Positions 23,215-37,958 of a stretch of 64,000 nt of DNA are shown here, one piece after another (positions within the stretch are counted from its first letter, which is position 1; every line of letters begins with the position of its first letter). The DNA is from Akkermansia muciniphila (GTDB lineage Bacteria; Verrucomicrobiota; Verrucomicrobiia; Limisphaerales; BJHT01): the NCBI GenBank assembly GCA_945861535.1, contig CAMAUZ010000002.1, positions 62,001 through 126,000 of the forward strand, given 5' to 3'. A program made the position numbers and the translations under genes. The notes below the pieces were generated by a model. That model saw nothing but the letters and a program-made list of their open reading frames with translations. It made no database searches and was not told the DNA's origin.

Positions 23215-25479
23215 ATGAAGCAACGGCCCGTCCTTTCGCTCCGCCGCCCGAGTCTGTTCTCGGCGGTTCTCCCCCCCACCTTCCACAAATTCGTCCTGCT
23301 CTTCACGCTTCTCGCCGGCACCGGTTCGTTGCTGGCCCAAGAGGGGAAAGCCCCCGTCCCCGGTGCCAGTTCCGTCATCGAAGACCGCAAGGCCAAGCAG
23401 ATGATCGAAGCCGGCGACGCCCGCTACGACGCCAACGAGATAGAGCCGGCCATCGAACTCTACAAAGCCGCCATCGACCGCTATCCCGCCAGCAAGTGGC
23501 GCTACCTCGCCCATCTCAAGATCGGCAAGCACGCCTTCCTCAAGGATCGTAAGTACGACCTCGCCCTTGACCAGTTCCGCCGCGTCGCCGCCGTCGAGAA
23601 CAAAGACATCGATCAAGTCGCCGAAGCCAGCCTCTTCATCGGCCGCACGCTGTTCGAGAATCAGAAGTTCGAAGAGTCCTTCACCGCCCTGCGCGACGTC
23701 ATCAAGAACTTCCCCGACACTCCTTATTGCAACGACGCCTACTTCTACATCGGCCAGGGTCACTTCAAACTCGGCCGCTTCAACCGCGCCATCGAAGCCT
23801 TCAAAAACGTCGGCACCGCCCTCGGCAAAGACGCCGCCGAATCCGACCGCCTCGAAATCGGCAAGCGCCTCTACATCCGCATTGACGATCAGGACCTCAC
23901 CGCCATGGCCAGCGCCGAGGGCTTGAAGGTCACCGTCGAAACCACCGCCGGCGACCGTGAAGAAGTCCTCTGCTTTTCCTCCACCCCCGGCTCCCCGACC
24001 CTCATGGGCAGCATCAAGACCGTCCTCGGTGACGCCTCCCGCACCAACGGCGTCCTCGAACTCAGCGGCACCGACACTTTGAAAGTCACTTACCTCGACA
24101 AGCAGACCGCCGACGGCAAGCTCAACCAAATCCGCATCCGCGAAATCCGCGCCGTCGGCCAGGGCCGCGCCGAAGTCGTGGACGGTGCCTTCGCCGATCC
24201 CGTCGGGGCCGTCGTCCTCGAAAAACCCGCCTTCCTCCGCGTCCGTGACGGCGATCGCGATATTACCAAAAAGCAGGACAAACTCGAAGCCATCGTCCGC
24301 ATCAAGCGCCTCGACGACTCCGACGCCACGCCGGCCAAGAGCGCCCAGACCGCCGCCGCCACCGACCCGGACGAAAAACCCGTCGCCAAGTACAAAGTCA
24401 TCCAGGAGAAAACCATCACCCTCAGCGAACAAGTCCTGAATCCCACGAACGCCTCGGTCCACGCCGAAGCCTTCATCGGTTCCATCCTCATTGTCCGCGA
24501 AGGCACCACCAACGCCGCCGCCCTCCACGCCAACGTCGGTGACTACCTCGAAATCGAGTACCGCGATGAACTCAATCTCACCGCCAAGTCCACCAACCGC
24601 GTCTATCTCGCCAAGGTCATCGAGGGCAACCTCAGCCCCCTCCAAGTCGCCGAGGCCAACGTCGCCGACGAAGAGTTGAAGATTCGCATCCCGCTCGAGA
24701 CCACCGAGGCCCTGACCAAGATCGGTAACATCTACAAAGAGATGGGTTTGAACCTCCAGGCCAAGGATAAGTACAAGCAGGCCCTCGACGAAGTTCAGCG
24801 CGTCGCCCGCACCCACGGCACGATGAACCCGCGCCTCCTCGAACGCACCTACGTGCAGACTTGGAAAATCTACTACGCCATGGACGACCTCAACCGCGCC
24901 GCCGCCCAGTGCGTCGAACTCCAGCGTCGCTTCCCCAACAGCCCCTTCGTCGGCGACGCCCTCCTTCTCATGGCCCAGGTCGCTCAGAAAAAAGGCAACT
25001 ACATGGAAGCCGTCGGCGTCTTCCGTCGCCTCGCCGGCATCAAGAGTCCCCTCGCCGCCGAAGCTCAGTTCGGCATCGGCGCCGCCCTCGAAGCCGCCGC
25101 CGAATCACAAAAGCAAAAATCCCACCTCGACGAGGCCTTCCGCGCCTACAAAACCTGCGCCGAGAAATTCCCCGCCTCCAAGTTCGCCGGCGACGCCCTC
25201 TCGCGCATGGCTGACTATTATTACAACAAGGAAGACTACAGCCGCGCCATCGACATCTACGAGGAAGCCATCAAGATGAATCAGGACTCCAAGTTCTTGG
25301 ATAACATCCTGTATGGTTACGGCCGTTGCCTCGTTAAGATGAAGCGCCTCGACCAGGCCCTCGAGAAATTCCGCAGCCTCATCCTCACCTATCCCAACAG
25401 TCCGCTCGCCCCCAAGGCCAAGCAGATCGCCGACGCCATCGAGAAGAAACTCGTCGGTGGAACCGCCAAGGCCGAGTGA
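23215..25479 (+). CDS. secreted TPR protein with beta modules (envelope operon gene 1)
   Basis: The 754-residue protein opens with a basic N terminus and hydrophobic core (FVLLFTLLAGTGSLLAQ) that form a signal peptide, ending at about residue 38-42. TPR-like helices of YbgF/BamD type (for example AIELYKAAIDRYP, ALDQFRRVAAV) fill residues about 60-215 and 490-750. Between them, from about 219 to 420, are two beta modules beginning RIDDQDLTAMAS and RVRDGDRDITKK, related to those in the next gene. The ATG at 23215 was chosen because a longer frame adds only upstream non-signal sequence. It is first of seven co-oriented genes; the next starts 47 bp after its stop. Confidence 0.85.
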   Translation: MKQRPVLSLRRPSLFSAVLPPTFHKFVLLFTLLAGTGSLLAQEGKAPVPGASSVIEDRKAKQMIEAGDARYDANEIEPAIELYKAAIDRYPASKWRYLAHLKIGKHAFLKDRKYDLALDQFRRVAAVENKDIDQVAEASLFIGRTLFENQKFEESFTALRDVIKNFPDTPYCNDAYFYIGQGHFKLGRFNRAIEAFKNVGTALGKDAAESDRLEIGKRLYIRIDDQDLTAMASAEGLKVTVETTAGDREEVLCFSSTPGSPTLMGSIKTVLGDASRTNGVLELSGTDTLKVTYLDKQTADGKLNQIRIREIRAVGQGRAEVVDGAFADPVGAVVLEKPAFLRVRDGDRDITKKQDKLEAIVRIKRLDDSDATPAKSAQTAAATDPDEKPVAKYKVIQEKTITLSEQVLNPTNASVHAEAFIGSILIVREGTTNAAALHANVGDYLEIEYRDELNLTAKSTNRVYLAKVIEGNLSPLQVAEANVADEELKIRIPLETTEALTKIGNIYKEMGLNLQAKDKYKQALDEVQRVARTHGTMNPRLLERTYVQTWKIYYAMDDLNRAAAQCVELQRRFPNSPFVGDALLLMAQVAQKKGNYMEAVGVFRRLAGIKSPLAAEAQFGIGAALEAAAESQKQKSHLDEAFRAYKTCAEKFPASKFAGDALSRMADYYYNKEDYSRAIDIYEEAIKMNQDSKFLDNILYGYGRCLVKMKRLDQALEKFRSLILTYPNSPLAPKAKQIADAIEKKLVGGTAKAE

Positions 25480-25526: not shown

Positions 25527-28500
25527 ATGAAATTCTCCCTCGCGCTCACCTGCGCCGCCCTCGTCGGCGTCGCCTCAACTCACGCCGCCGCCCTTGACGA
25601 CGTCCGCGCCCTTAACAGCAAGGGTCAGTTCGCCGAAGCCATCACCAAAGCGGAAACTGCCGCCCGGGCGAGCGGCAAAGATACCGCCGCACTTCAGGCC
25701 GAGTTAGTCGATGCCTACCTCGGTGCCGGCCGGTTGCTCGCTGCCAACCAGTTGGCTGACAAACTCCTCAAAGACATCCCCACCGGTCCGCTCAAAGCCC
25801 GCCTGCTTTTCGCCTGCGCGCGCGCCAAGGAAGCCAACGGCTGGAGCGCCAAAGCCCTCGCTCTCTACCGCACAGCCGCCGAAGTCGTCCCGCCCACTCC
25901 CGAACGTCCCGAGGCATTGATCGCCGCCGCCCGCGTCGCTTCCACCCTTGTCCGCGATGCTCGCGAAGAGGCCCGCGCCCTCCGTGATTTCGTCGAATCC
26001 TACTCCAAAGATCCCCGCGCCCGGGACGCCCACGAACGCCTCGTCTCCCATCTTATCCGTCAGAACGATCACAAAAACGCCGCCGCCTTCATCGCCAGCT
26101 ACACCAAGACTTACCCGGATGATCCCGCCTGCGCGGCGATGAATGAGTACTATCATCTCCGTCAGATCAACGACCTTCCCGCCGCCGTCGCCGCCTGGGA
26201 TCGCAAACGTCAGTCGCCGCACTTCGTTCTCGATGCCGGGACCGTCGCCCAATCCTTTGATCTTCTCCGCCAGAACAAAGACTACTTCGTTCGTTTGGAA
26301 AAACTCTGCCAAGACTATCAGGAAGCGACCGGCGATCCCGCCTATCTCCTCAGTCTGATAACTCAAGTCTATGAGCCGGCCAATGAAATGGACCGCGTCA
26401 TCCGTCTCGGCTCCGCCCTGATGCAGAAATATCCTAACACCACGCTGTCCCGTCAGGTGCGCCTCGCCGTCGCGTCGGCCCAGCAGAAAATCAACAAGAT
26501 CGCGGACGCCGAAAAACTCCTCGTCGCCGCCATCGCCGACGAACCCGCGAACATGACCGCCTGGTCGCGTTACGATCTCTTGGTCACAGTGGATAAGCGC
26601 CCCGCCGCCTTCACCCAGCTCGCCACCGCCACCCTTGCGGCCAATGCCAATCAAGCCAACCCGGCGATCAAGGCCATCGTCGCCAACGAACTGACTTATG
26701 CCCTCGCCCGCAAAGCCGCCCAAGCCAAGGATCACCCCGCCACGCTCAAACTCGCCACCACCTATCTCGAGACGACCGGTCTCGCACACTCTGGCGAACT
26801 GATCGGCTGGGCGTTCGACTCCAGCTTCGCTGTCACCAATAATTTCGATACGCTCACCGCCTCGCTCGAAAAATATTTCACCCGCCTTCCCGCGGCGTGG
26901 AACCCCGCCGTTGCCTACACGGAAGGTGTCGCGCGGGAATGGGCCAAGGGCGGCAAGCAGGCTCCGCATCCCGTCGAAGGCAAGAAGCTCTTGGAAATGC
27001 TGACCCGCGTCCGCGGCACCGATGCCCAAAAGCAGATGAGTCAGTTGCAACAGGCCCGCTCTACCAGCAAATGGAAAAACGCCGGCGAACTCGGTGCCGC
27101 CCTCGCTCCCACGTTGCCCGCTGGTTCCCTACTCCAAACTGAGATCGGTATCTCCGCCATCGAGGCCCTTACTTCCGCCAGCCAGTTCGAAAAAGCCGGC
27201 GACCTGGCCAAGACCCTCGCGCCCGCCAGCAAAGGTCACACCCCGCTCCTCTGGGCCGGCGCCCAAGCCTACCTCCGGCTCGCCAAACCCAAAAGCGCCG
27301 ATGCGATTCCGTTGCTCAAGGAAATTGCCCAGCGCGGCTACGCCCCGCTCGATCCCGCCGCCGTACGCGGCACTCTCTTCCAAGTCTATGAGGCCAACGG
27401 TCTCCTTGCCGAAGCCCAGACCGAACTGACTGAAATCTCCAAACTCTCTCCCGGCAGTCTCAACAATCGCGAACTCGAACGCCGTCTTGCCGTCGCCCTC
27501 GCCACCGCCGGCAAAACCAACGAAGCCACCCAGATCATCCAGAAGCTGGCCAAGCTCGCCAAACCCTACAACGGAGATCTCGCCCTTATCAGTGACTTCA
27601 CCCCGGTCAACGCCGCTCACGCAGCGTGGATCGTCCCGATTCTCGATGACTATCTCAAGCGCCCAAACCGCGGCCCCAACCAGATCGTCGCCCTCAACAC
27701 CAAGGGCCGCTTCACCCATTACGCCCTCACTAACAACGCCGCCGCCGAGAAAATTCTCCGCGAACAATCCGCCCGTTCCGCTGACTATCTTTTCGCCGCC
27801 CGCGGCCCGCATGTGGATTGGATGGATGCCACCATCAGCCGCATCACCAGCACGCCCGACTACACCGCGGACCAGCTTCAGCTCATCAAGGATGGGATCA
27901 AGATTTACACCGCCTACCCGACCTGGATCAAAGCCGCCCTCACCGGTTCCGCCCGGCTCAACCAACCCATCGAGTTCGCCCAATATCTCAACCGGTTCGC
28001 CTCCTCTTTCGGCCCTTCTGATGCCGGACGCTTCACCGAACTCGTGACGCTGGCCCGGCAGCTTGCCGACGACAAAACACCCGAACTGGCCGGCATGGTC
28101 CTCCTCAAGGCTGACTCGCATTTCAAGAGTGTCGATGAAAAGACCCGCGCCCAGGGCCGCCAGTTCCTCTACACCTTGAACAAGGATTCCGCCCTCGGTC
28201 TCGGCACTGTTATCATTGATCCCAGCGTGCCTTACTCCGTCTTCCTCGTCGCCGCCGAAAGCTTCCGTAACAGCGAACTGGAATCCGCCTGGAAAGCTTA
28301 CACCGTCAACGAAGCCATCTTCCCCAAGAACCTCGATAACATCCCCGTTGACTACATCCGCTATGTCGCCGGCCGCCTCATGCTCCTCGAAGATGAAGTC
28401 TCCCGCGAAAAGGCCGAGTCCTATCTTCGCCGCTGGATCATCGCCAACGACGCCGTCACCGCCATCTCCGCCGACGAGAAGGCCCTCACCCAGCAACAAC

Positions 28501-31500
28501 TGGGCTCGCTCTACTTCAAGTCCCAACGCTACGACCTGGCCCGCTCGGAGTTCACCGCCTTGCGGAATAAGTACCCCGGCACAGCCGCCGCCGGCGACGC
28601 CATCTTCCGCATCGGTGAGTGTTACATGGAACAGAAGATGTACAGCGATGCTTTCAAGATCTTCGAGAAGCTCGCCGGCTCCAAAGTCCGCGAAGAAGTC
28701 GCCCGCGCCGAATTCCTCATGGGCGTCCTCGCGCTCCGCAAAGGTGACTCCGAGGAAGCCAAGAATCGCTTCCGTTCTGTCATGGATCTCAGCCCTTCCA
28801 GCGATGTCTCCAACCAAGTTCTCTTCCGCCTCAGCGAACTCTACGGTGCGGACGGCCGCTTCGGCGATCAGTTGAACCTCCTCCGCAGCGTCGGACTCAT
28901 CGGCTCGTCCGCCAAACGTTGGATGCTACCCGGCGGTCCGCTCAACATCGTCATCCATGACGCCGACCTCGGTGTCAGCCGCGGCCAGAGCTATGTGCCC
29001 GTTATTGTCACCACCTCGAGCGGTGACCGTGAAACCGTCCGCCTCGAATCCGGCACCGCTGGCAAAGGCTTCTTCCGCGCCGACCTCCTCACCGAACTGG
29101 GCGATGTGAAAGCCGGCGACGGGAAACTCCAGGTCAATGGCAAGGACGTCATCAACTACGACTACCCGGACGACTTCAAGAAACAGTTCTCCAACATTCC
29201 CCCGCTGCCCTCCAACATCCAAGTCGCCTCCGACGGGAAATTCATGGTCTCCGCCACGGAGATCAAAGAAGACGACGAGGCCGAAGGCAAACCCGTCGCC
29301 ACCAAGCGAAAAGCCGATGACGACGACAACCGCATCCAATATCGCCAAGGCAACGAGATCAAACCCGGCAACAACATCTACCTCTATGTGAAAGATGCCG
29401 ACCGCGACACCTCCGGCGAAGCCGATGTGATTGAGGTCTTGGTCGAGACTTCCAATGGTAACACCGCCCGCGCCCGCCTGACCGAAACCGGCCCGCACAC
29501 CGGCACCTTCTTCGGAACGCTCAAGACCTACGAACTCACCCAAAACGCAATGGCCAGCGATCAGTCGCTGAACAACCAACCGTTCAAGGCCGTGGACAAC
29601 GACCGCAGTACCGCTTGGGAAGGTCAGAACGATGGTAACACCCCCAAGACCCTCACCCTCGACCTGCGGGAGAAACTCGGCCTCGCCGGCATCCGCTGGT
29701 GGCCCGATCCCACCACGCCGGAAAAGACTCCGCTCGAATACGTGATCCAGATTTCCGACGATCAACAGACTTGGAAGACTGTCGCCACCACCGTCGGCGC
29801 GTCGGGCGCCACCAAGGCACTCACCGATATCATCAAACCCATCCCTGGCGAAAATGCCCTCGGAACCGTCATTGCTCTCGGCACCAACGCCACGGCCCGG
29901 TATGTCCGCTTCGTTATTGAGAAATTCAACGGCAGCGCCCCGCGCATCACCGAAGTCGAAATCACCGACCCCGCCGGCAAAGTTCTGCTCCCGTTGAAGT
30001 CCACCCCGAAACCCGCCGATGGCCAGGCCCTCGCCGTTTCCCCCGGTGAGACAGTCACTGCGACCTACGCCGACGAAGTGAACCTCATCAACCCCGGCAA
30101 GCCCCGCAATCTCAGCCAGGCGCTCAAGGCCACTTACTACAACGGCAAGGTCGCCGCCATCGGCTACCATTTCAGTGACTCCGGCGGCGGCGGCATCCCG
30201 CAGTCCCATGTCAAAGCCGTCCGTCGTGTGGAACCGGGCGACCGCATTATTGTCCAGATCACTGACTATGACGCCGACACCACCAACCAACGTGACAAGA
30301 TCCAGTTCACCGTAAAAACCAGCGGTGGCCAGACCTTCAAATCGGAAGCCACCGAGACCGAGAGTTACACCGGCGTCTTCACCAAGGAAGTGGACATCAA
30401 AGGCGAGAAACGCCCCGACGGCATCGCCCTCGCCCCCGGCGAAACCCTCGAGATCACCTATCTCGACGAGCAGAACACCCAGCCCGGCACGCCGACTGTC
30501 CGCAGTACGGCTGTCGAGGCTGTCACCCATGTCGAACCCAAGATCAGCGTCATGGAATCACGGGTCATCTATAACAAGGAAGGCAAGGAGACTAAGTTCG
30601 ACTTCGCTTCCACTCTTGGGCAGGATCTTCCGGTGAAATCCGTCGCCTTCACCGCGCCTTTCGTGTTCGAGGTCCTCGATCCCACGGCGGCCAAGGATTC
30701 CTTCAGCGAGGTTAAAGTCACTCTCACCACCTCCGGCGGTGCTTCGGTGGAAGTGATCTGTCCGCTCTCCCTCAGCCTCAGCGGGGCCAAGGCCAAAAAA
30801 GCCGGTACCACTCCCGACACGGCCCTTGATCTCGGTCGCTTTGTCGGTCAGATCGTCTTGGCGCTGGGTGACAAGGATTCCCCCAACACCACCTCGCTGG
30901 ATCCTTGGGACCTCCGGCTGACCACCCAGATCTCCCGCTCGACGCCGTTCCGAAAAGGCGACTCGCTCGCCGACAACGTCGTCCCCGTCCTGAACCTCAA
31001 CGGCCGCGACATCATCACCACGTCCTACAAGCGCCTGACCACCCAGACCAACATTCCCGCCGCCGAGGCCAAAGATCAGGCCCGCCTCGCCGTCCCCGTC
31101 GTCGTCGGCTATTTCGACAGCGCCTACGACCGCCCGATGACCAACGCCCATGTCGGCGAAAAAATCTATCTGCGCATCGAAGACCTCGCCGCCGATGTCT
31201 CGGGCGAACTCGACGCCATCGACGTTGAAGTCACTACCTCCTCCGGCGAGAAGCTCAAACTCAAGCTCAAGGAAACCCTCGGGCACAGCGGTATCTTCAC
31301 CGGCAACCTGCTCCTCGAACCCGGCCAGAAACCCGATCCTGCCGATGACAAACTCACCGCCTGGTTCGGTGACACCATCACCACCTCCTACAAGCCCGGC
31401 GGCACCAACACCACCACCCCGGCTGTCACCATGGACCTGCCGGTGGCCCGCGGCACCGATGGCGTCCTCGCCAGCTTCCAGAAGAAATTCAGCGGCGAAA

Positions 31501-32285
31501 ACATCGCCGTCGAAACCCAGTTCCGCATGGCTGAAGCCTGCTTCGAACTGTTCAAAAACTTCCGCGCCCTCAAGCAACAGCAACAGGCCGATGATGTCCT
31601 GCGCGACGGGATGCAAATCCTCCGCGAACTTACCGAGGAATACGGCGCCACCACCTATCGCGCCCGCATGAGCTATCTCCTCGCCCAGTTCGCCCAGGAG
31701 CTGAAGAACTACGACGAAGCCATCACTCACTACCAGCGCATCGTCCGCCAGCACGCCGAAAGCACCCTCGCCCCGGACGCCCACTACAAACTCGCGCAAT
31801 GCTACGAGGAGAAAGGCGACATCAACACCGCCACCGAGCAATATGTCACCTTGGCGTACACTTATCCCGACAGTCCCTTGGTCGCCAATGTCATGGTTCG
31901 TATCAGTGACTACTTCTACAAAAAAGAGGACTACGAAACCGCCGCCCAGACCGCGCGCAAATTCGTCGAACGTTTCCCGACCCATGAATGGGCCGAGCGC
32001 CTGGCCTTCCGCACCGCGCAATCCTACTCCAAGGCCAGCAAGTTCGCCGAGGCCGCCAAGGAGTTCGATGCCTTCGTCGAGGCCTACCCCAAGAGCACCT
32101 TCCGTCCGATGGCCCTCTTCTGGTCCGGCGAATCCTACCGCAGCGCCAGCGTCCTCAAATCCGCCTACCAACGCTACAAGCGCACCACTTGGGACTATCC
32201 GGAATCCGAGGCCGCCAAATACGCCCGCGGCCGCCTCGTCCAGCCTGAGATGGCCAACATGGCGGACAGTGACAATAACAACTGA
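25527..32285 (+). CDS. giant secreted TPR/beta-module/discoidin protein (envelope operon gene 2)
   Basis: The protein has 2252 residues with a signal peptide (MKFSLALTCAALVGVAS, cut near residue 22), so it is periplasmic or outer-membrane associated. Residues about 25-1110 and 1978-2250 are TPR-like helices (EFTALRNKYPGTAAAGDAIF; ITHYQRIVRQHAES). The middle third has four copies of a beta module that starts with an acidic strand (HDADLGVS near 1138; VKDADRDTSGEADV near 1285; ITDYDADTTNQRDK near 1573; EDLAADVSGELDA near 1880) and continues T-S-G...ETG-x-x-TG-x-F. A discoidin (F5/8 type C) domain lies at about 1340-1478 (FKAVDNDRSTAWEG, ARYVRFVIEKF). The acidic starts might bind calcium. Such domains suggest binding to glycans or surface polymers. 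The start is the ATG at 25527 with the signal peptide. The next gene starts two bases after the stop. Confidence 0.87.
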   Translation: MKFSLALTCAALVGVASTHAAALDDVRALNSKGQFAEAITKAETAARASGKDTAALQAELVDAYLGAGRLLAANQLADKLLKDIPTGPLKARLLFACARAKEANGWSAKALALYRTAAEVVPPTPERPEALIAAARVASTLVRDAREEARALRDFVESYSKDPRARDAHERLVSHLIRQNDHKNAAAFIASYTKTYPDDPACAAMNEYYHLRQINDLPAAVAAWDRKRQSPHFVLDAGTVAQSFDLLRQNKDYFVRLEKLCQDYQEATGDPAYLLSLITQVYEPANEMDRVIRLGSALMQKYPNTTLSRQVRLAVASAQQKINKIADAEKLLVAAIADEPANMTAWSRYDLLVTVDKRPAAFTQLATATLAANANQANPAIKAIVANELTYALARKAAQAKDHPATLKLATTYLETTGLAHSGELIGWAFDSSFAVTNNFDTLTASLEKYFTRLPAAWNPAVAYTEGVAREWAKGGKQAPHPVEGKKLLEMLTRVRGTDAQKQMSQLQQARSTSKWKNAGELGAALAPTLPAGSLLQTEIGISAIEALTSASQFEKAGDLAKTLAPASKGHTPLLWAGAQAYLRLAKPKSADAIPLLKEIAQRGYAPLDPAAVRGTLFQVYEANGLLAEAQTELTEISKLSPGSLNNRELERRLAVALATAGKTNEATQIIQKLAKLAKPYNGDLALISDFTPVNAAHAAWIVPILDDYLKRPNRGPNQIVALNTKGRFTHYALTNNAAAEKILREQSARSADYLFAARGPHVDWMDATISRITSTPDYTADQLQLIKDGIKIYTAYPTWIKAALTGSARLNQPIEFAQYLNRFASSFGPSDAGRFTELVTLARQLADDKTPELAGMVLLKADSHFKSVDEKTRAQGRQFLYTLNKDSALGLGTVIIDPSVPYSVFLVAAESFRNSELESAWKAYTVNEAIFPKNLDNIPVDYIRYVAGRLMLLEDEVSREKAESYLRRWIIANDAVTAISADEKALTQQQLGSLYFKSQRYDLARSEFTALRNKYPGTAAAGDAIFRIGECYMEQKMYSDAFKIFEKLAGSKVREEVARAEFLMGVLALRKGDSEEAKNRFRSVMDLSPSSDVSNQVLFRLSELYGADGRFGDQLNLLRSVGLIGSSAKRWMLPGGPLNIVIHDADLGVSRGQSYVPVIVTTSSGDRETVRLESGTAGKGFFRADLLTELGDVKAGDGKLQVNGKDVINYDYPDDFKKQFSNIPPLPSNIQVASDGKFMVSATEIKEDDEAEGKPVATKRKADDDDNRIQYRQGNEIKPGNNIYLYVKDADRDTSGEADVIEVLVETSNGNTARARLTETGPHTGTFFGTLKTYELTQNAMASDQSLNNQPFKAVDNDRSTAWEGQNDGNTPKTLTLDLREKLGLAGIRWWPDPTTPEKTPLEYVIQISDDQQTWKTVATTVGASGATKALTDIIKPIPGENALGTVIALGTNATARYVRFVIEKFNGSAPRITEVEITDPAGKVLLPLKSTPKPADGQALAVSPGETVTATYADEVNLINPGKPRNLSQALKATYYNGKVAAIGYHFSDSGGGGIPQSHVKAVRRVEPGDRIIVQITDYDADTTNQRDKIQFTVKTSGGQTFKSEATETESYTGVFTKEVDIKGEKRPDGIALAPGETLEITYLDEQNTQPGTPTVRSTAVEAVTHVEPKISVMESRVIYNKEGKETKFDFASTLGQDLPVKSVAFTAPFVFEVLDPTAAKDSFSEVKVTLTTSGGASVEVICPLSLSLSGAKAKKAGTTPDTALDLGRFVGQIVLALGDKDSPNTTSLDPWDLRLTTQISRSTPFRKGDSLADNVVPVLNLNGRDIITTSYKRLTTQTNIPAAEAKDQARLAVPVVVGYFDSAYDRPMTNAHVGEKIYLRIEDLAADVSGELDAIDVEVTTSSGEKLKLKLKETLGHSGIFTGNLLLEPGQKPDPADDKLTAWFGDTITTSYKPGGTNTTTPAVTMDLPVARGTDGVLASFQKKFSGENIAVETQFRMAEACFELFKNFRALKQQQQADDVLRDGMQILRELTEEYGATTYRARMSYLLAQFAQELKNYDEAITHYQRIVRQHAESTLAPDAHYKLAQCYEEKGDINTATEQYVTLAYTYPDSPLVANVMVRISDYFYKKEDYETAAQTARKFVERFPTHEWAERLAFRTAQSYSKASKFAEAAKEFDAFVEAYPKSTFRPMALFWSGESYRSASVLKSAYQRYKRTTWDYPESEAAKYARGRLVQPEMANMADSDNNN

Positions 32286-32287
32286 GC

Positions 32288-32713
32288 ATGAAAGCCGCCA
32301 CCGTCGCCACCGCTCCCCGACCCGCCCTCCCCAAATCACCCTTGTGGAAGTGGACCGGGGTATCCGCAGCAGGCCATGCTGTTTTCCTCGCACTGCTCTG
32401 TCTGATCTCCCATCAGATCGAGAAGCAAAAGCAGGCCAAACTCAAAGCCGAGACCGAGCAAAAGGCCGCCGCCGCCGCGGCTGCCGAAAAAGCCGCCGCT
32501 GAGAAAGCCGCCGCCGACAAGGCCGCGGCCGACAAAAAGAAAGCCGCCGCTCCTGAGTCTCCCAAGACGGCTTCCGCCGGACCTGCCACCGGCACGACCA
32601 ACGACGTCAAGTCGGCGGAGAAAATCCTCGGCATCGACAAGGTCGCGTCGCCGGAGGAACTCAAGAAGGGCCTCAAGTCCAAGGACGACGATCTCCTGAA
32701 GGATCTTAAGTAG
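32288..32713 (+). CDS. TolA/TonB-like membrane-anchored linker protein (envelope operon gene 3)
   Basis: The 141-residue protein has one N-terminal membrane helix (about residues 22-42) preceded by a basic cytoplasmic tail, then an Ala/Lys/Glu-rich segment (KAETEQKAAAAAAAEKAAAE) predicted to be a long helix, and a short charged C-terminal tail. This layout resembles TolA or TonB without a C-terminal receptor-binding domain. With ExbB- and ExbD-like genes downstream, it is a candidate energy-transducing rod. It starts two bases after the stop of the giant gene. Confidence 0.75.
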   Translation: MKAATVATAPRPALPKSPLWKWTGVSAAGHAVFLALLCLISHQIEKQKQAKLKAETEQKAAAAAAAEKAAAEKAAADKAAADKKKAAAPESPKTASAGPATGTTNDVKSAEKILGIDKVASPEELKKGLKSKDDDLLKDLK

Positions 32714-32744: not shown

Positions 32745-33791
32745 ATGCCCCCGCCTGTTCCCAAAACCTCTCGTGTGTGGAATCCATTCCGCGCCCAAGC
32801 TTGGTTCTGGCAGGGGCGGCACGGCGATTTCCGCCGCTGGTGGGCCATCTCCTTACTCGGTCACGTTGGGCTGGTCGCTCTGACATCCTTGGTTCTTCTT
32901 ATCCCTGGCTGCCGCCGTTCCTATGACTTGGTCAAAGGTTCCGGCAAACCCAAGGCGATGATGAAGCAGATGAAGGTCCAGAAGGTTCACGTTGAGAAGA
33001 AGAAGCGCATCCTCGTCAACCCCAACAGCTCCGTCCTCTTCCACATTCCCGACGTCGATGCCACCCCGCTCCAGCTCAAGGAAATCACCGCCAACGAATA
33101 TAAGATCGGTCAGGGTGACGGCGATGGCCCGCCGGGTTATGCGGCTGGAAAAGCGGGTGCCAAGTTTCTCTTTGTCCGTGTCAGTACCAAGGGCGGCGAC
33201 TGGGACCTAAATCTCCGCAATGGTGCCGACGCCAATCTCATCAAACGCTTCGGCCAGGACTCCAAGATGCCCGTCTCGCCACTGAGCATTGACGTGCCGC
33301 TCAACGAAATCGACCGCTACAAGTCCGCCAAAGCGCCACCCGTGGTTTTCTTCACGGGCAGCAAGGGATTTCAATTTGATGCCAAGGATCCCAAGCGGCT
33401 CCGTTCCTATCTCCTGGATAATCACGGCATGGTCTTCGCCGACCACGGTGGCAATCAGTTCCACAATGTCTTCATGCAGTTGCTCCGCGCCGCCCTTCCC
33501 GAAGTGCAGCCGGTCGCCGTGCCCGATGACGATCCGCTCTACGGCGCGCCGCATTACATGGAAGGCTGCCCGCCACTTTGGGCGCACAACGGCACGCAGG
33601 CGCTGGGTTGGAAGAAAAACGGCCGTTGGGTGGTCTTCTATCACCAAGGTGCGATCACGGACGCTTGGAAGGATAATCACGGCGGCACTTCCGCCGAATC
33701 CGCCGAGCTGGCCTACCGGCTAGGTGTCAATGTTTTGGCTCAGGCCATGGCCTCCTATAGTGAGTGGGTCATGGGGCGGCAGGGTAAATAA
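32745..33791 (+). CDS. DUF4159 membrane protein (envelope operon gene 4)
   Basis: The 348-residue protein has an N-terminal cytoplasmic tail, a membrane helix near residues 33-54 (WAISLLGHVGLVALTSLVLL), a basic linker, and a C-terminal domain of the DUF4159 type: FLFVRVSTKGGDWDLN, YLLDNHGMVFADHGG, VPDDDPLYGAPHYMEG and WVVFYHQGAITDAW. DUF4159 proteins occur with ExbBD and TPR genes in Planctomycetes and Verrucomicrobia (family knowledge); function is unknown. The gap to the preceding gene is 31 bp. Confidence 0.85.
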   Translation: MPPPVPKTSRVWNPFRAQAWFWQGRHGDFRRWWAISLLGHVGLVALTSLVLLIPGCRRSYDLVKGSGKPKAMMKQMKVQKVHVEKKKRILVNPNSSVLFHIPDVDATPLQLKEITANEYKIGQGDGDGPPGYAAGKAGAKFLFVRVSTKGGDWDLNLRNGADANLIKRFGQDSKMPVSPLSIDVPLNEIDRYKSAKAPPVVFFTGSKGFQFDAKDPKRLRSYLLDNHGMVFADHGGNQFHNVFMQLLRAALPEVQPVAVPDDDPLYGAPHYMEGCPPLWAHNGTQALGWKKNGRWVVFYHQGAITDAWKDNHGGTSAESAELAYRLGVNVLAQAMASYSEWVMGRQGK

Positions 33792-33806: not shown

Positions 33807-34460
33807 ATGTTGTGGGAATGGATTGTTGCAGGCGGGATGACGATGGGGATGTTGATCATATGCTCCACCATCAGCATTGGGGTCGTCCTCGAGCGCACCT
33901 CGTTCTTCCGGCGCATCCGCGCCGCCACCCAGACCCTCGAGGGCGAGATCAATAACGCCCTCGCCGGCAAAAAACCCGAGCTGATCCCGACCCTCTGCGC
34001 CCAAAGCGAGTCGCCCCTCGCCAAGCTCGTCCTCGCCGAGATCGAGTCCAACAAAGCCCCTGACAGCGAGGAAGCCCGTCGCACCCTCGAGCTCACCATG
34101 CGCGGCGAGATTGGCCGCCTGAAAAGCTACCTCCCTGTTTTGGCCACCATCGCCTCCGTCTCGCCCTTCATCGGCCTATTCGGCACCTGCAAAGGCATCA
34201 TCGTCGCCTTCTCCGACATCGCCACCCAAGGCATGGGCGGCCCCGCCGTGATCGCTGCCGGCATTTCCGAAGCCCTCGTCGCCACCGCCACCGGCCTCGT
34301 CGTCGCCATTCCCGCCCTGCTCTTCTTCAACTTCTTCTCCCGCACCATCAGCACCTACGCCCTCGAACTCGAGTCGCTCGCCTTCGCCACCTACCGGCAC
34401 TACACCAGCGCGCTCGGCGACACTGCGGCCAAGGTCGTCGGCAAGTTAAAAGTTCATTGA
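33807..34460 (+). CDS. MotA/TolQ/ExbB-family proton channel protein
   Basis: The 217-residue protein has three membrane segments: near residues 4-27, near 115-145, and near 155-185. The TolQ/ExbB motif is LPVLATIASVSPFIGLFGTC, where the family uses its Thr and Gly in proton flow. A GAAAGG seven bases before the ATG is one of the few clear Shine-Dalgarno sites here. It probably forms the motor stator with the next gene. A TolQ or ExbB assignment cannot be separated. Confidence 0.95.
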   Translation: MLWEWIVAGGMTMGMLIICSTISIGVVLERTSFFRRIRAATQTLEGEINNALAGKKPELIPTLCAQSESPLAKLVLAEIESNKAPDSEEARRTLELTMRGEIGRLKSYLPVLATIASVSPFIGLFGTCKGIIVAFSDIATQGMGGPAVIAAGISEALVATATGLVVAIPALLFFNFFSRTISTYALELESLAFATYRHYTSALGDTAAKVVGKLKVH

Positions 34461-34512: not shown

Positions 34513-34920
34513 ATGGCTTTTGACCCCGGCGGCGATTCCGATGAAGTCATCGCGAGCATCAACTTCATCCCGATGATCGACATCTCCCTCGTGTTGCTGA
34601 TCATTTTCATGGTCGCCACCACTTTCGTAAATGTCACGGGCATCGACCTCAAGCTACCCAAGGCCACCACCGCAAAAAACTCCGAGCTCAAAACCGTCAC
34701 CATCCAAGTCTCGACGATGAAGGATGTTTTCCTCAACGGCGAGAAGACCACGCTCGATGTGCTTAAAGCCGGCATCAATGAGAAGCTTATCGGTGCCAAA
34801 GACCGCTCGGTAGTCGTCAACATAGACACCTCGGTGGACTACGGCCTCGCTGTGAAAGTCATGGACATCGTCAATCAGGCCGACGCCGCCATCATCCTCG
34901 CCACGGAGATCGACAAATGA
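34513..34920 (+). CDS. ExbD/TolR-family proton channel protein
   Basis: The 135-residue protein has a single N-terminal membrane helix in INFIPMIDISLVLLIIFMVA, with the conserved channel Asp at residue 23, and a periplasmic alpha/beta domain ending DIVNQADAAIILATE. Length and layout are those of ExbD/TolR. It follows the ExbB gene by 52 bp and its last codons overlap the ATG of the next gene (ATGA overlap at 34917-34920). Confidence 0.95.
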   Translation: MAFDPGGDSDEVIASINFIPMIDISLVLLIIFMVATTFVNVTGIDLKLPKATTAKNSELKTVTIQVSTMKDVFLNGEKTTLDVLKAGINEKLIGAKDRSVVVNIDTSVDYGLAVKVMDIVNQADAAIILATEIDK

Positions 34921-36434
34921 AAACGCGCCCCCTGGTCATCGTTCTCACCGCCCTCGCCTTCCTGCTCCACTTCTCCCTCGCCGCCGCGCCCCGCGCCAAG
35001 GCCGCCACCCTCGCTGCCGACCGCTGGGGTTCCATGACCGAGGAAGAACGCTATGCCATGAAACAGGCCGAGCAGTTTTTCACCAAGAAGGACTACAAGG
35101 CCGCCAAGTCCTCCTACGAACACTTCCTCCAGCTTTACAACAAATCGGCCGCCGCTTCCTACGCCCTCCTCAAGTCCGCCGAATGCACCCGCCAGCTCGG
35201 TCAGGTCAACACCGCCGCCAAGGAATTCCGCGATGTCATGGATTATTATCCCGACTCGCCCGAAGCCATCGAGGCGCTCTACTCCGTCGGCGTCTGCTTC
35301 ACCCAGTCCGGCGATGCCGATGCTTCCGCCGCCGCCTTCGAGAAAGTCATTGATACCTTCCCCAAAACCACCGCCGCCACCCGCGGCCGCTGGAAACTCG
35401 TCAGCATCTACTGGGGCCTGAAGAAACCCCTCAAATCCCTCGAACATCTCCGCTTCCTTGCCGAACAACCCTACCCGGACGTCGAGCAAATCCGCTCCTC
35501 CGCCCTCCAGCGTTACACCTGGCAGTTGCTCTACGAAAACAAATTCGCCGAAGCCTACGAACTCGCCGTCAAGAACCAGGGGAAAGACGCCGCCGTCCAC
35601 ATCGCCGCCGAGTCCTGGAACACGATGCAGCATCATTACATCCATCCTATCTACGGCGACGCCGGCATGACAAAACGCCGCTCCATCGCCATCGGCATCG
35701 CCGGCTTTCTGGACCAGAAAGTCGCGGAAGCCAAAGACCATCCCGGCTTCAAATCCATCAATCTCTACATGGCCCGTAACTTCTCCGCGGTCGGAACCAA
35801 CGAGCTGGCCGGCAAACGCTATGAGTCACTCCTCACCAAATATCCCGACGACGACGGCATCAAATTCGAATTCGCCGACTACCTCCTCGGCATCGGCAAA
35901 GCCAGCCAGGCCCGCCACTACTATCAGCAGGCCAAGGACCGCTATGCGGGCGACGGTCGCGTCGCCGAGAGCTTCAATCACGAAGGCAACACCAAGGAAG
36001 CCGTCAGCCGCTACCGCGCGATGATCGAGCGCTACCCGAAGAACGCCGCCGGCCTGAACTGGCGCCTGGCCGAAATCTGCCACAAGGCCGGCATGCTGCC
36101 GGATGCCATCGCCGCCTTCCAACAATCCCAGCGCGAACCCGAGAGTCTCTTCCGCATCTCCCAATGCCAGGCCTCGCTTAAGCAGTACGACGCCTCCCTC
36201 CAGACCCTCGTCACCGTCATGAACTTCTTCCCCGACCGTGCCGCCGAAGCCCTCTTCCGCTCCGGCAAAGTCCAGGAAACCAAAGGGGACAAAAACGCCG
36301 CCATCAATTCCTACAAAAAGGTCTGCAAAAACTTCCTCACCACCCACTGGGCCGGCCAGGCGCACCAAGTCCTCGCCCGCGACTTCGGCATCGAAGTCAC
36401 CCTCGGCGGCGCTGCCAAGAAAAAGGACGAATAG
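34917..36434 (+). CDS. secreted TPR protein (envelope operon gene 7)
   Basis: The 505-residue protein starts with a signal peptide (PLVIVLTALAFLLHFSLAAAPRA) and continues as TPR-like helices throughout (ALLKSAECTRQLGQV, AIEALYSVGVCF, SQCQASLKQYDASL). It resembles YbgF/CpoB-type periplasmic helpers of Tol systems. The start overlaps the ExbD stop by four bases, so the two are translationally coupled. It is the last gene of the operon; a DUF1501 gene follows after 75 bp and may be separate. Confidence 0.85.
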   Translation: MKTRPLVIVLTALAFLLHFSLAAAPRAKAATLAADRWGSMTEEERYAMKQAEQFFTKKDYKAAKSSYEHFLQLYNKSAAASYALLKSAECTRQLGQVNTAAKEFRDVMDYYPDSPEAIEALYSVGVCFTQSGDADASAAAFEKVIDTFPKTTAATRGRWKLVSIYWGLKKPLKSLEHLRFLAEQPYPDVEQIRSSALQRYTWQLLYENKFAEAYELAVKNQGKDAAVHIAAESWNTMQHHYIHPIYGDAGMTKRRSIAIGIAGFLDQKVAEAKDHPGFKSINLYMARNFSAVGTNELAGKRYESLLTKYPDDDGIKFEFADYLLGIGKASQARHYYQQAKDRYAGDGRVAESFNHEGNTKEAVSRYRAMIERYPKNAAGLNWRLAEICHKAGMLPDAIAAFQQSQREPESLFRISQCQASLKQYDASLQTLVTVMNFFPDRAAEALFRSGKVQETKGDKNAAINSYKKVCKNFLTTHWAGQAHQVLARDFGIEVTLGGAAKKKDE

Positions 36435-36509: not shown

Positions 36510-37958
36510 ATGTCACACTGCAAAAACTTCTCCCCCCGCCCGCTCACACGGCGTGCGATGCTCACGCAGTGCGCGAGCGGTTTTGGTGGCCTGTCCCTGC
36601 TGGCGCTGCTGGCCGACAAATCCTTTGGCGCGGCCATCCAGTCCGGCGCGACGACGACGGTCCGTCCGCTCGCACCGCGCCGCCCGCACTTCGCCGCCAA
36701 GGCGCGCAACGTCATCTTTCTCTACATGGACGGCGGCCCGTCGCAGGTGGACACGTTCGATCCCAAGCCGCGGCTGGACTTGGAGAGCGGGAAGAAATTT
36801 GGCGACAAGATCGAGCCGACGCAGTTCAACAACATCGGCAACACGCTCAAAAGCCCATGGGCCTTCCGGCAGTATGGCCAGAGCGGCATTCCCGTCAGCG
36901 ACCTTTTTCCCCACGTCGCACGGTGCGTGGATGACCTGGCCGTGGTGCGCTCGATGACGAGCAATTTTTCCGAGCACACGAACGCCAATTACTTTCTCCA
37001 CACCGGCAGCGGTCTCCAAGGCCGCCCCAGCATGGGCGCGTGGATCGGCTACGGCCTCGGCAGTCCCAACGCCGATCTCCCCGGTTTTATCGTCCTCAAT
37101 GGCGGGCTGATCCCGCCGGGCGGCCTCGACAATTTCAACAGCGGCTTCCTGCCCGCCAGCTATCAAGGCTCGGTGTTCAAGCCCAGCGGCCAGGCCGTCG
37201 CGAACGTCACGCCGTCCGAACCCAAGCCGGAGCTGCAGGCCGCCAAGCTCGCCTTGATGCGCAAACTCGACGCCGGCGTGCTGGAGCGCTTTGGCAAAAT
37301 CGACGCCCTCGAGAGCGCCATCGCCAACTACGAACTCGCCGGCCAGATGCAGCTCGCCGTCCCCGAACTGATGAACCTCGCCGGCGAAACCGACGTGACG
37401 AAAGAGTTGTACGGCCTCAACTCGAAAACCCCCGGCACGCGCACCTTCGGCACCCAATGCCTGCTGGCCCGCCGCATGGTCGAGCGCGGCGTGCGCTTCA
37501 TCGAACTGACCTGCCCGAGCGGCGCGGGCGACCGCTGGGACCAGCACGGCGACCTTAAAAACGGCCATGAGAAAAACTCGCTCTTCGTCGATCAGCCCAT
37601 CGCCGGCCTGCTCACCGACCTCAAAGGCCGCGGCCTGCTCGACAGCACGCTGGTCATCTGGGCGGGCGAGTTCGGGCGCACGCCCTTCGCGCAGGGCAGC
37701 AACGGGCGCGATCACAATCCCTTCGGCTTCACAATCTGGCTCGCGGGCGGCGGCGTGAAAGGCGGCACCATTTACGGCGCGACCGACGAATACGGCTACA
37801 AGGCGCTGCCGGAATACAAGGTCACCATCCACGATCTCCACGCGACGCTGCTGCATCTGCTCGGCCTCGAACACACGCAGCTCACCTATCGGTTCAGCGG
37901 TCGCGACATGCGTCTGACCGACGTACATGGCGAGGTGCTGTTACCGATTCTGGCCTGA
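36510..37958 (+). CDS. DUF1501 secreted protein (sulfatase/alkaline phosphatase-like fold)
   Basis: The 482-residue protein has a Tat-type start (LTRRAMLTQCASGFGGLSLLALLA) and the typical DUF1501 motifs YMDGGPSQVDTFDPKP near residue 70, PHVARCVDDLAVVRSM near 130, FIELTCPSGAGDRWDQHG near 332, VIWAGEFGRTPFAQ near 385 and NPFGFTIWLAGGGVKGG near 405. The family fold resembles alkaline phosphatase/sulfatase, and it is normally paired with a PSCyt1/DUF1549/DUF1553 gene. Here it stands without one next to it. Function unknown; exported, probably folded before export. Confidence 0.95.
   Translation: MSHCKNFSPRPLTRRAMLTQCASGFGGLSLLALLADKSFGAAIQSGATTTVRPLAPRRPHFAAKARNVIFLYMDGGPSQVDTFDPKPRLDLESGKKFGDKIEPTQFNNIGNTLKSPWAFRQYGQSGIPVSDLFPHVARCVDDLAVVRSMTSNFSEHTNANYFLHTGSGLQGRPSMGAWIGYGLGSPNADLPGFIVLNGGLIPPGGLDNFNSGFLPASYQGSVFKPSGQAVANVTPSEPKPELQAAKLALMRKLDAGVLERFGKIDALESAIANYELAGQMQLAVPELMNLAGETDVTKELYGLNSKTPGTRTFGTQCLLARRMVERGVRFIELTCPSGAGDRWDQHGDLKNGHEKNSLFVDQPIAGLLTDLKGRGLLDSTLVIWAGEFGRTPFAQGSNGRDHNPFGFTIWLAGGGVKGGTIYGATDEYGYKALPEYKVTIHDLHATLLHLLGLEHTQLTYRFSGRDMRLTDVHGEVLLPILA

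Follow-up and report, generated by a model that had tools for sequence, protein, structure and literature searches.

Ig-like modules of S-layer type, one of them interrupted by a discoidin domain, in a giant TPR protein encoded with an ExbB/ExbD motor in Verrucomicrobiota

The repeated modules of a giant TPR protein encoded in the window (the whole stretch of DNA that was analysed, 64,000 nt) are Ig-like beta-sandwich domains of the S-layer type known from thaumarchaeal NmSLP and anammox Kustd1514, as established by sequence profile and by the predicted fold of module C; the fold is not new. By alignment, one of these homologous modules is interrupted by a discoidin domain. The genes form a patchy but recurring cluster, which comprises the giant, two TPR proteins, ExbB, one or two copies of ExbD, a small TolA-like protein with a motor-binding TM motif, and a DUF4159 protein. 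The interest of the system lies in the interrupted-module architecture and in the motor-linked cluster, the domain itself being known in kind.

The features of the cluster are listed in Table 1. The giant is a protein of 2269 aa whose N-terminus resembles a signal peptide (by inspection only), and it is probably exported. The gene of the companion protein directly precedes it. The modules of the giant had been described as lying inside a TPR superstructure, and Pfam TPR matches indeed flank the module region on both sides. The TPR stretches of both proteins exceeded the cut-off of the TIGR02795 (tol-pal YbgF) model (90.1 bits), with 155.0 bits for the giant and 109.1 bits for the companion, and the companion also exceeded that of the BamD model (102.3 bits vs 81.4); these matches are confined to the TPR parts of the two proteins. 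The two motor proteins scored above the Pfam cut-offs of PF01618 and PF02472 and belong to the ExbB and ExbD families, respectively, while the Pfam scan of the 141-aa membrane protein returned no domain above cut-off. A DUF1501 gene follows the cluster (window positions 36510-37958); its relatives adjoin the companion gene in the related loci L024 and L025, a short match was seen in L021, and none was seen in L062-L077.

Table 1. Positions of the giant, its modules and the neighbouring genes in the window
Feature	Position	Strand	Basis and remarks
Companion TPR protein with modules E and F	23215..25479	+	Pfam TPR matches; start codon ATG 23215; ORF open from GTG 23128
Module E	23851..24129	+	104 bits to the 20-module profile, which itself contains this E
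Module F, variable internal linker	24208..24597	+	Alignment, profile-profile comparison
Giant TPR / Ig-like / discoidin protein	25527..32285	+	ATG 25527, stop 32285; ORF open from GTG 25476
Best-scoring TPR_6 repeat, helical region ahead of the modules	28596..28676	+	Pfam, residues 1041-1067
Module A (HDADLG)	28926..29180	+	Alignment with relatives, profile-profile comparison
Module B, first part B1 (KDADRD)	29352..29543	+	Alignment; rejoining test
Discoidin (F5/8 type C) domain inside module B	29544..30005	+	Pfam stretch 29553-29936
Module B, second part B2	30021..30107	+	Alignment; rejoining test
Module C (TDYDAD), structure modelled	30222..30506	+	Alignment, model, superposition
X, possible diverged seventh module	30642..31043	+	Best profile-profile probability 59
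Module D (EDLAAD)	31140..31421	+	Alignment, profile-profile comparison
C-terminal TPR block of the giant	31674..32237	+	Pfam: TPR_16 from residue 2067; YfiO to residue 2254
141-aa TolA-like membrane protein	32288..32713	+	TM helix S-x3-H-x6-L-x3-S, K/A/E-rich stretch, acidic/hydrophobic C-terminus
DUF4159 protein	32745..33791	+	Pfam; S-x3-H hydrophobic helix near the N-terminus, also in L021
ExbB/TolQ-like motor protein	33807..34460	+	PF01618, 112.7 bits, cut-off 22.9
ExbD/TolR-like motor protein	34513..34920	+	PF02472, 88.5 bits, cut-off 25.4
505-aa TPR protein of the cluster	34917..36434	+	Pfam; homologues in related loci

Modules A to F were delimited by alignments with four relatives. The four acidic starts that the earlier note had read in the giant were located as claimed, one in each of A to D, and the two further modules that it had assigned to the preceding gene were recovered there as E and F. 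When module families of five genomes each (among them the window and L021, which are 94% identical) were compared profile against profile, A, B, C, D and E matched one another at 62-99% probability, and F matched B, C and D at 94-98% but scored low with A (9-13) and E (22). As column-shuffled controls (n = 147) reached at most 10.6, the relatedness of the modules is not due to chance, and the proposal that one module is common to the two adjacent genes holds for all six copies. Since X does not rise above the probability given in Table 1, it is only a possible seventh copy and is unproven.

To what known family these modules belong was examined by profile and structure searches. A profile built from 20 modules matched a single significant sequence in the PDB, the S-layer protein of Nitrosopumilus maritimus (8c8k_A, E 1.9e-4), with profile positions 11-87 of 95 aligned to residues 1518-1595, with the acidic and E-T-x-x-x-x-G-x-F positions in register, and with the next PDB match at E 0.17. 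Of the 20 modules, 11 were matched by the NCBIfam model of the Kustd1514 S-layer protein (NF052345) at E<=1, the lowest E being 5.4e-11. With the whole giant, this model scored 37.8 bits, far below its cut-off of 1400; Kustd1514 and the giant thus have a domain in common and are different proteins. The structure of module C was predicted from 12 sequences (pLDDT 72.6, pTM 0.60). Superposition by VIA-align placed this model on NmSLP residues 1508-1610 with Z 10.4 and rmsd 1.7 over 91 of 95 residues, and on residues 1374-1492 with Z 10.3 (domains 9 and 8 of NmSLP, respectively), compared with Z 5.7 for the best unrelated chain; the same fold thus extends over the whole module in the predicted model of module C, the one module to which this comparison applies. 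NmSLP was also ranked first by Foldseek (probability 1.00, E 0.04), with nothing below E 0.001. Separately, sub-threshold pieces of NmSLP hint that one NmSLP domain may be interrupted near profile position 59-65, the scores being not significant.

The absence of a known family, on which the suggestion of a new domain had been based, was borne out in Pfam: the best match, Cadherin-like, scored 17.3 bits vs a cut-off of 24.2, and Calx-beta and the other Pfam Ig families, tried as candidates, gave nothing above cut-off and, in a scan of the 20 modules, nothing better than E 0.0057. The suggestion itself is contradicted by the NmSLP profile match, the superposition of module C and the matches to the Kustd1514 model. 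The proposed profile search was productive in the PDB and NCBIfam and not in Pfam. The existing Ig-like family with full coverage that was to speak against novelty is in substance a solved structure and not a named Pfam family. That the modules form a truly new family unrelated to S-layer Ig domains, their match being a generic beta-sandwich resemblance, is very improbable; the lack of a Pfam family and the Foldseek E of only 0.04 would fit such a reading, but sequence profile and predicted structure converge on the same NmSLP domain with the signature positions in register, and Z 10.4 lies well above the next unrelated value, by which it is largely refuted. The modules are accordingly treated below as S-layer-type Ig domains, that is, as a domain without a Pfam entry common to archaeal, anammox and verrucomicrobial proteins.

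The acidic starts were scored at profile positions 15, 17, 19 and 25. In the window, all four positions are acidic in B, C and F, position 17 is not in D, two are in A, and three are in E, the last being Glu. When relatives were scored with the window left out, the four positions were acidic in 20, 20, 20 and 20 of 20 sequences for module C, in 18, 11, 19 and 20 of 20 for D, and in 16/16 at each position for F (the first half could be scored in 16 of the 19 companions); the counts were 20, 19, 5 and 14 of 20 for B, 20, 4, 0 and 0 of 20 for A, and 19, 19, 0 and 8 of 19 for E. Across relatives, C and F thus have the complete acidic set, D has almost all of it, and B, A and E have part of it. Graded by these counts in the window and in its relatives, a putative calcium or other cation site is plausible in C, D, F and the window's B, and A and E are poor candidates for one.

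The discoidin domain named in the earlier note is real by Pfam (PF00754, 48.9 bits vs a cut-off of 28.2, residues 1360-1487), although it lies within module B and not beside it. An insert was found at about the same place of module B in 21/21 giants examined. All 20 giants outside the window gave a first-half match of B followed by a separate second-half match; the first ended at profile position 59-81 (59-68 in 16/20 giants), and the second started at position 22-67 (63-67 in 13/20, earlier in the other seven). With the bounds fixed by us at profile positions 60 and 66, the inserts of these 20 giants were 162-515 aa long (median 327). They can be aligned at their beginning and end, both of which are discoidin-like; at E<=0.1, F5/8 type C was matched by 13/20 inserts and the NedA-like family by 9/20. 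A PA14-like middle segment looked plausible by eye in the longer inserts, and it was dropped as a candidate when neither the Pfam scan nor a profile search for a PA14 structure returned one; the best match of that profile was unrelated (E 0.26). When the two halves of B were rejoined and scored with a profile trained without any B sequence, the median was 68.6 bits. The medians of the first and second halves by themselves were 46.5 and 14.0 bits, respectively, and reversed sequences did not exceed 9.3 bits; joining gained at least 12.9 bits in 21/21 cases, the window included. The predicted structure of module B with the discoidin domain was too poor to use (mean pLDDT 46.7), for which reason the nesting is argued here from sequence: judged in this way, each giant examined has one module into which a domain is inserted at roughly the same loop.

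Of the 23 other module-bearing genomes in the phylum sample, 18 supplied 20 stretches. The 19 related loci, from 17 genomes, consist of 15 of these stretches (13 genomes) together with L021, L022, L023 and L025; L024, left out of the 19, is probably the companion half of a cluster whose giant lies in L023, on another contig. On the same strand as the giant, ExbB was found in 18/19 loci, ExbD in 16/19 (two downstream copies in 14), DUF4159 in 15/19, and the companion and the homologue of the 505-aa TPR protein in 18/19 each, in several gene orders. No ExbB, ExbD or DUF4159 was present in locus L064. L072 and L074 run to contig ends and L073 to the end of the stretch taken, about 2.5 kb past which a DUF4159 gene lies. 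In the genome of L073, two giants flank one companion gene. In five of the 18 genomes (L071 and L078-L081), the cluster was not found in the stretch looked at. Three of these stretches (L078, L079 and L080, from other genomes of the class) hold open frames of 4343-6349 aa with two module copies each, and no TPR/ExbBD cluster gene was found in them.

A 903-aa query matched 5 of 39 genomes at E<=0.001, the window's own genome included. The contig search with the giant gave one locus from the same genus (94% identical), and the plasmid search gave nothing at E<=0.01. At E<=1e-4, the module profile matched 24 of the 288 phylum genomes, and it matched 80 of 196 genomes of the order, 18 of them with at least 75 bits among the matches listed. 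DUF4159 spreads far wider than the module (110/288 genomes of the phylum), so it is not specific to the cluster. Weak module matches were also seen in two subtilisin-like (Peptidase_S8) proteins, L098:3226-8832 (own genome, contig C54, 1868 aa) and L097:3515-8665 (1716 aa), and many further open frames of about this length, each with one or two such matches, came up in the order-wide search.

The small membrane protein, in several cases picked by eye, was present in all 17 clusters examined (the window and 16 loci; L064, L073 and L074 were left out). Its stop-to-stop length is 139-248 aa, with 405 aa in L063, and its short C-terminal tail is by eye mostly acidic and hydrophobic. Its TM helix carries His in 14/17 clusters and does not in L023, L025 and L070. 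In L023 and L025, where the TM helix is without His, the protein also has a long N-terminal extension, which we take to resemble a GYF_2 domain. By eye, the SHLS motor-binding motif is present as S-x3-H-x6-L-x3-S, the spacing of E. coli TonB, in the small proteins of the window, L021 and L022; the SHLS transducer TM motif is named in the part of PMC12204202 consulted. A strict S-x3-H TM helix in the small or the DUF4159 protein was found in 11/19 loci, against a background of 9 in 2150 unlabelled ORFs, 5 of which were the clusters' own small ORFs; of the eight loci without it, three have the transducer genes absent or cut off. The three DUF4159 proteins scanned with Pfam matched DUF4159 only, and TonB_C gave no match up to E 1 in the two transducer candidates of the window. 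The own genome contains ten ExbD matches, one of them in this cluster. At E<=0.001 it also contains five TonB_C matches, of which four exceed the cut-off and none lies in this cluster; the motor of the cluster is thus one among several.

This coexistence of motors, together with the discoidin insert, ExbBD and the S-x3-H TM helices, would suit a system for uptake of polysaccharide or another large substrate, in which the discoidin and Ig domains would capture glycan, the motor would drive import and the DUF4159 protein would replace TonB. The missing TonB_C in both candidates argues against it, and we consider such an importer quite unlikely. The reading preferred here, to which we give moderate confidence, is a TonB/Tol-like, proton-driven trans-envelope system with Ig-like modules of S-layer type, in which the TPR/Ig giant is the periplasmic load. 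The ExbB/ExbD motor, fuelled by proton motive force, would pull via the TolA-like protein and the membrane-anchored DUF4159 protein on a periplasmic TPR complex of the giant, the companion and the 505-aa protein, and the C-terminal tail of the small protein would dock on the TPRs. The modules, which sit between two TPR regions of the probably exported giant, one of them holding the inserted domain, would be stiff spacers or lattice contacts, partly stabilised by cations, and the discoidin domain may hold envelope glycan. That the small transducer has no recognised globular end suggests that it passes force to its partner differently. Counted against this mechanism are the patchy occurrence of the cluster, the 3/17 TM helices without His, the 8/19 loci without a strict S-x3-H helix, the absence of a motor gene from L064 and the wide spread of DUF4159.

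Its periplasmic load was weighed against a location at the cell surface, where the Ig modules would form an S-layer-like outer lattice packed or anchored by the TPRs and the motor would serve another system, e.g., a TonB-type importer. In favour of the surface, the modules have S-layer proteins as their closest relatives in both structure and sequence, and the two subtilisin-like proteins with weak matches (1716 and 1868 aa) indicate that the module need not go with the motor. ExbB, however, accompanies the giant in 18/19 loci in several gene orders, and the TPR parts of the giant and companion exceed the TIGR02795 cut-off, those of the companion also the BamD cut-off; we therefore regard the surface location as unlikely. 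If the trans-envelope reading is followed further, the system might be a separate class of proton-driven machine in Verrucomicrobiota, defined by ExbBD, a TolA-like protein with a bare acidic docking tail, a DUF4159 transducer, and a giant of S-layer modules always with a discoidin-like guest; this is a tentative idea, towards which we lean less than away. The cluster brings Ig modules of S-layer type together with an energised envelope motor, and it offers a defined set of genes with which to study the role of the uncharacterised ExbBD copies in this group.

Among known systems, the giant is like NmSLP (PDB 8c8k, 8c8o) in its Ig-like modules, with matching signature and fold, and in their tandem array. 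According to the part of PMC11153153 consulted, NmSLP is an archaeal lattice protein with an array of Ig-like domains, its domain 4 is nestled within domain 3, and TPR or discoidin domains are unmentioned there. The differences are that the insert of the giant is a discoidin domain and that the genes of the giant sit with an ExbBD motor. The likeness to Kustd1514, an anammox S-layer glycoprotein (PMC5088730, consulted in part), lies in the sequence match of the module, and the difference in the full-length model, whose cut-off the giant is far from reaching. That NmSLP and Kustd1514 both build surface lattices speaks against a Tol-like role, for which the giant would have to be periplasmic. 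Tol-Pal and TonB-ExbBD resemble the present cluster in ExbB and ExbD by Pfam, in the TM motif and in the TPR partner, which in Tol-Pal is CpoB; TonB-ExbBD differs in that the two transducer candidates of the window have no TonB_C domain.

In the open-access literature searched, no description of such a giant or of a transducer lacking a recognisable globular end was found, nor anything on DUF4159, alone or with ExbB; the motor-linked cluster may be an undescribed envelope machine. The PVC force-transducer clusters published in 2025 hold, in the part of PMC12204202 consulted, a TPR gene, a tolQ-like gene, two tolR-like genes and an SHLS transducer with a vWA end, and the force-transducer section contains no mention of a giant Ig/discoidin protein. 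The TPR gene, the tolQ/tolR-like genes and the SHLS TM motif are also present in our cluster, whereas the candidate transducers here, in place of those that end in vWA, are a protein of the DUF4159 family and a small membrane protein in which no globular end was recognised. The present cluster resembles that system and may have a common origin with it, and what Pfam labels DUF4159 here could be the family of the published vWA transducers under another name.
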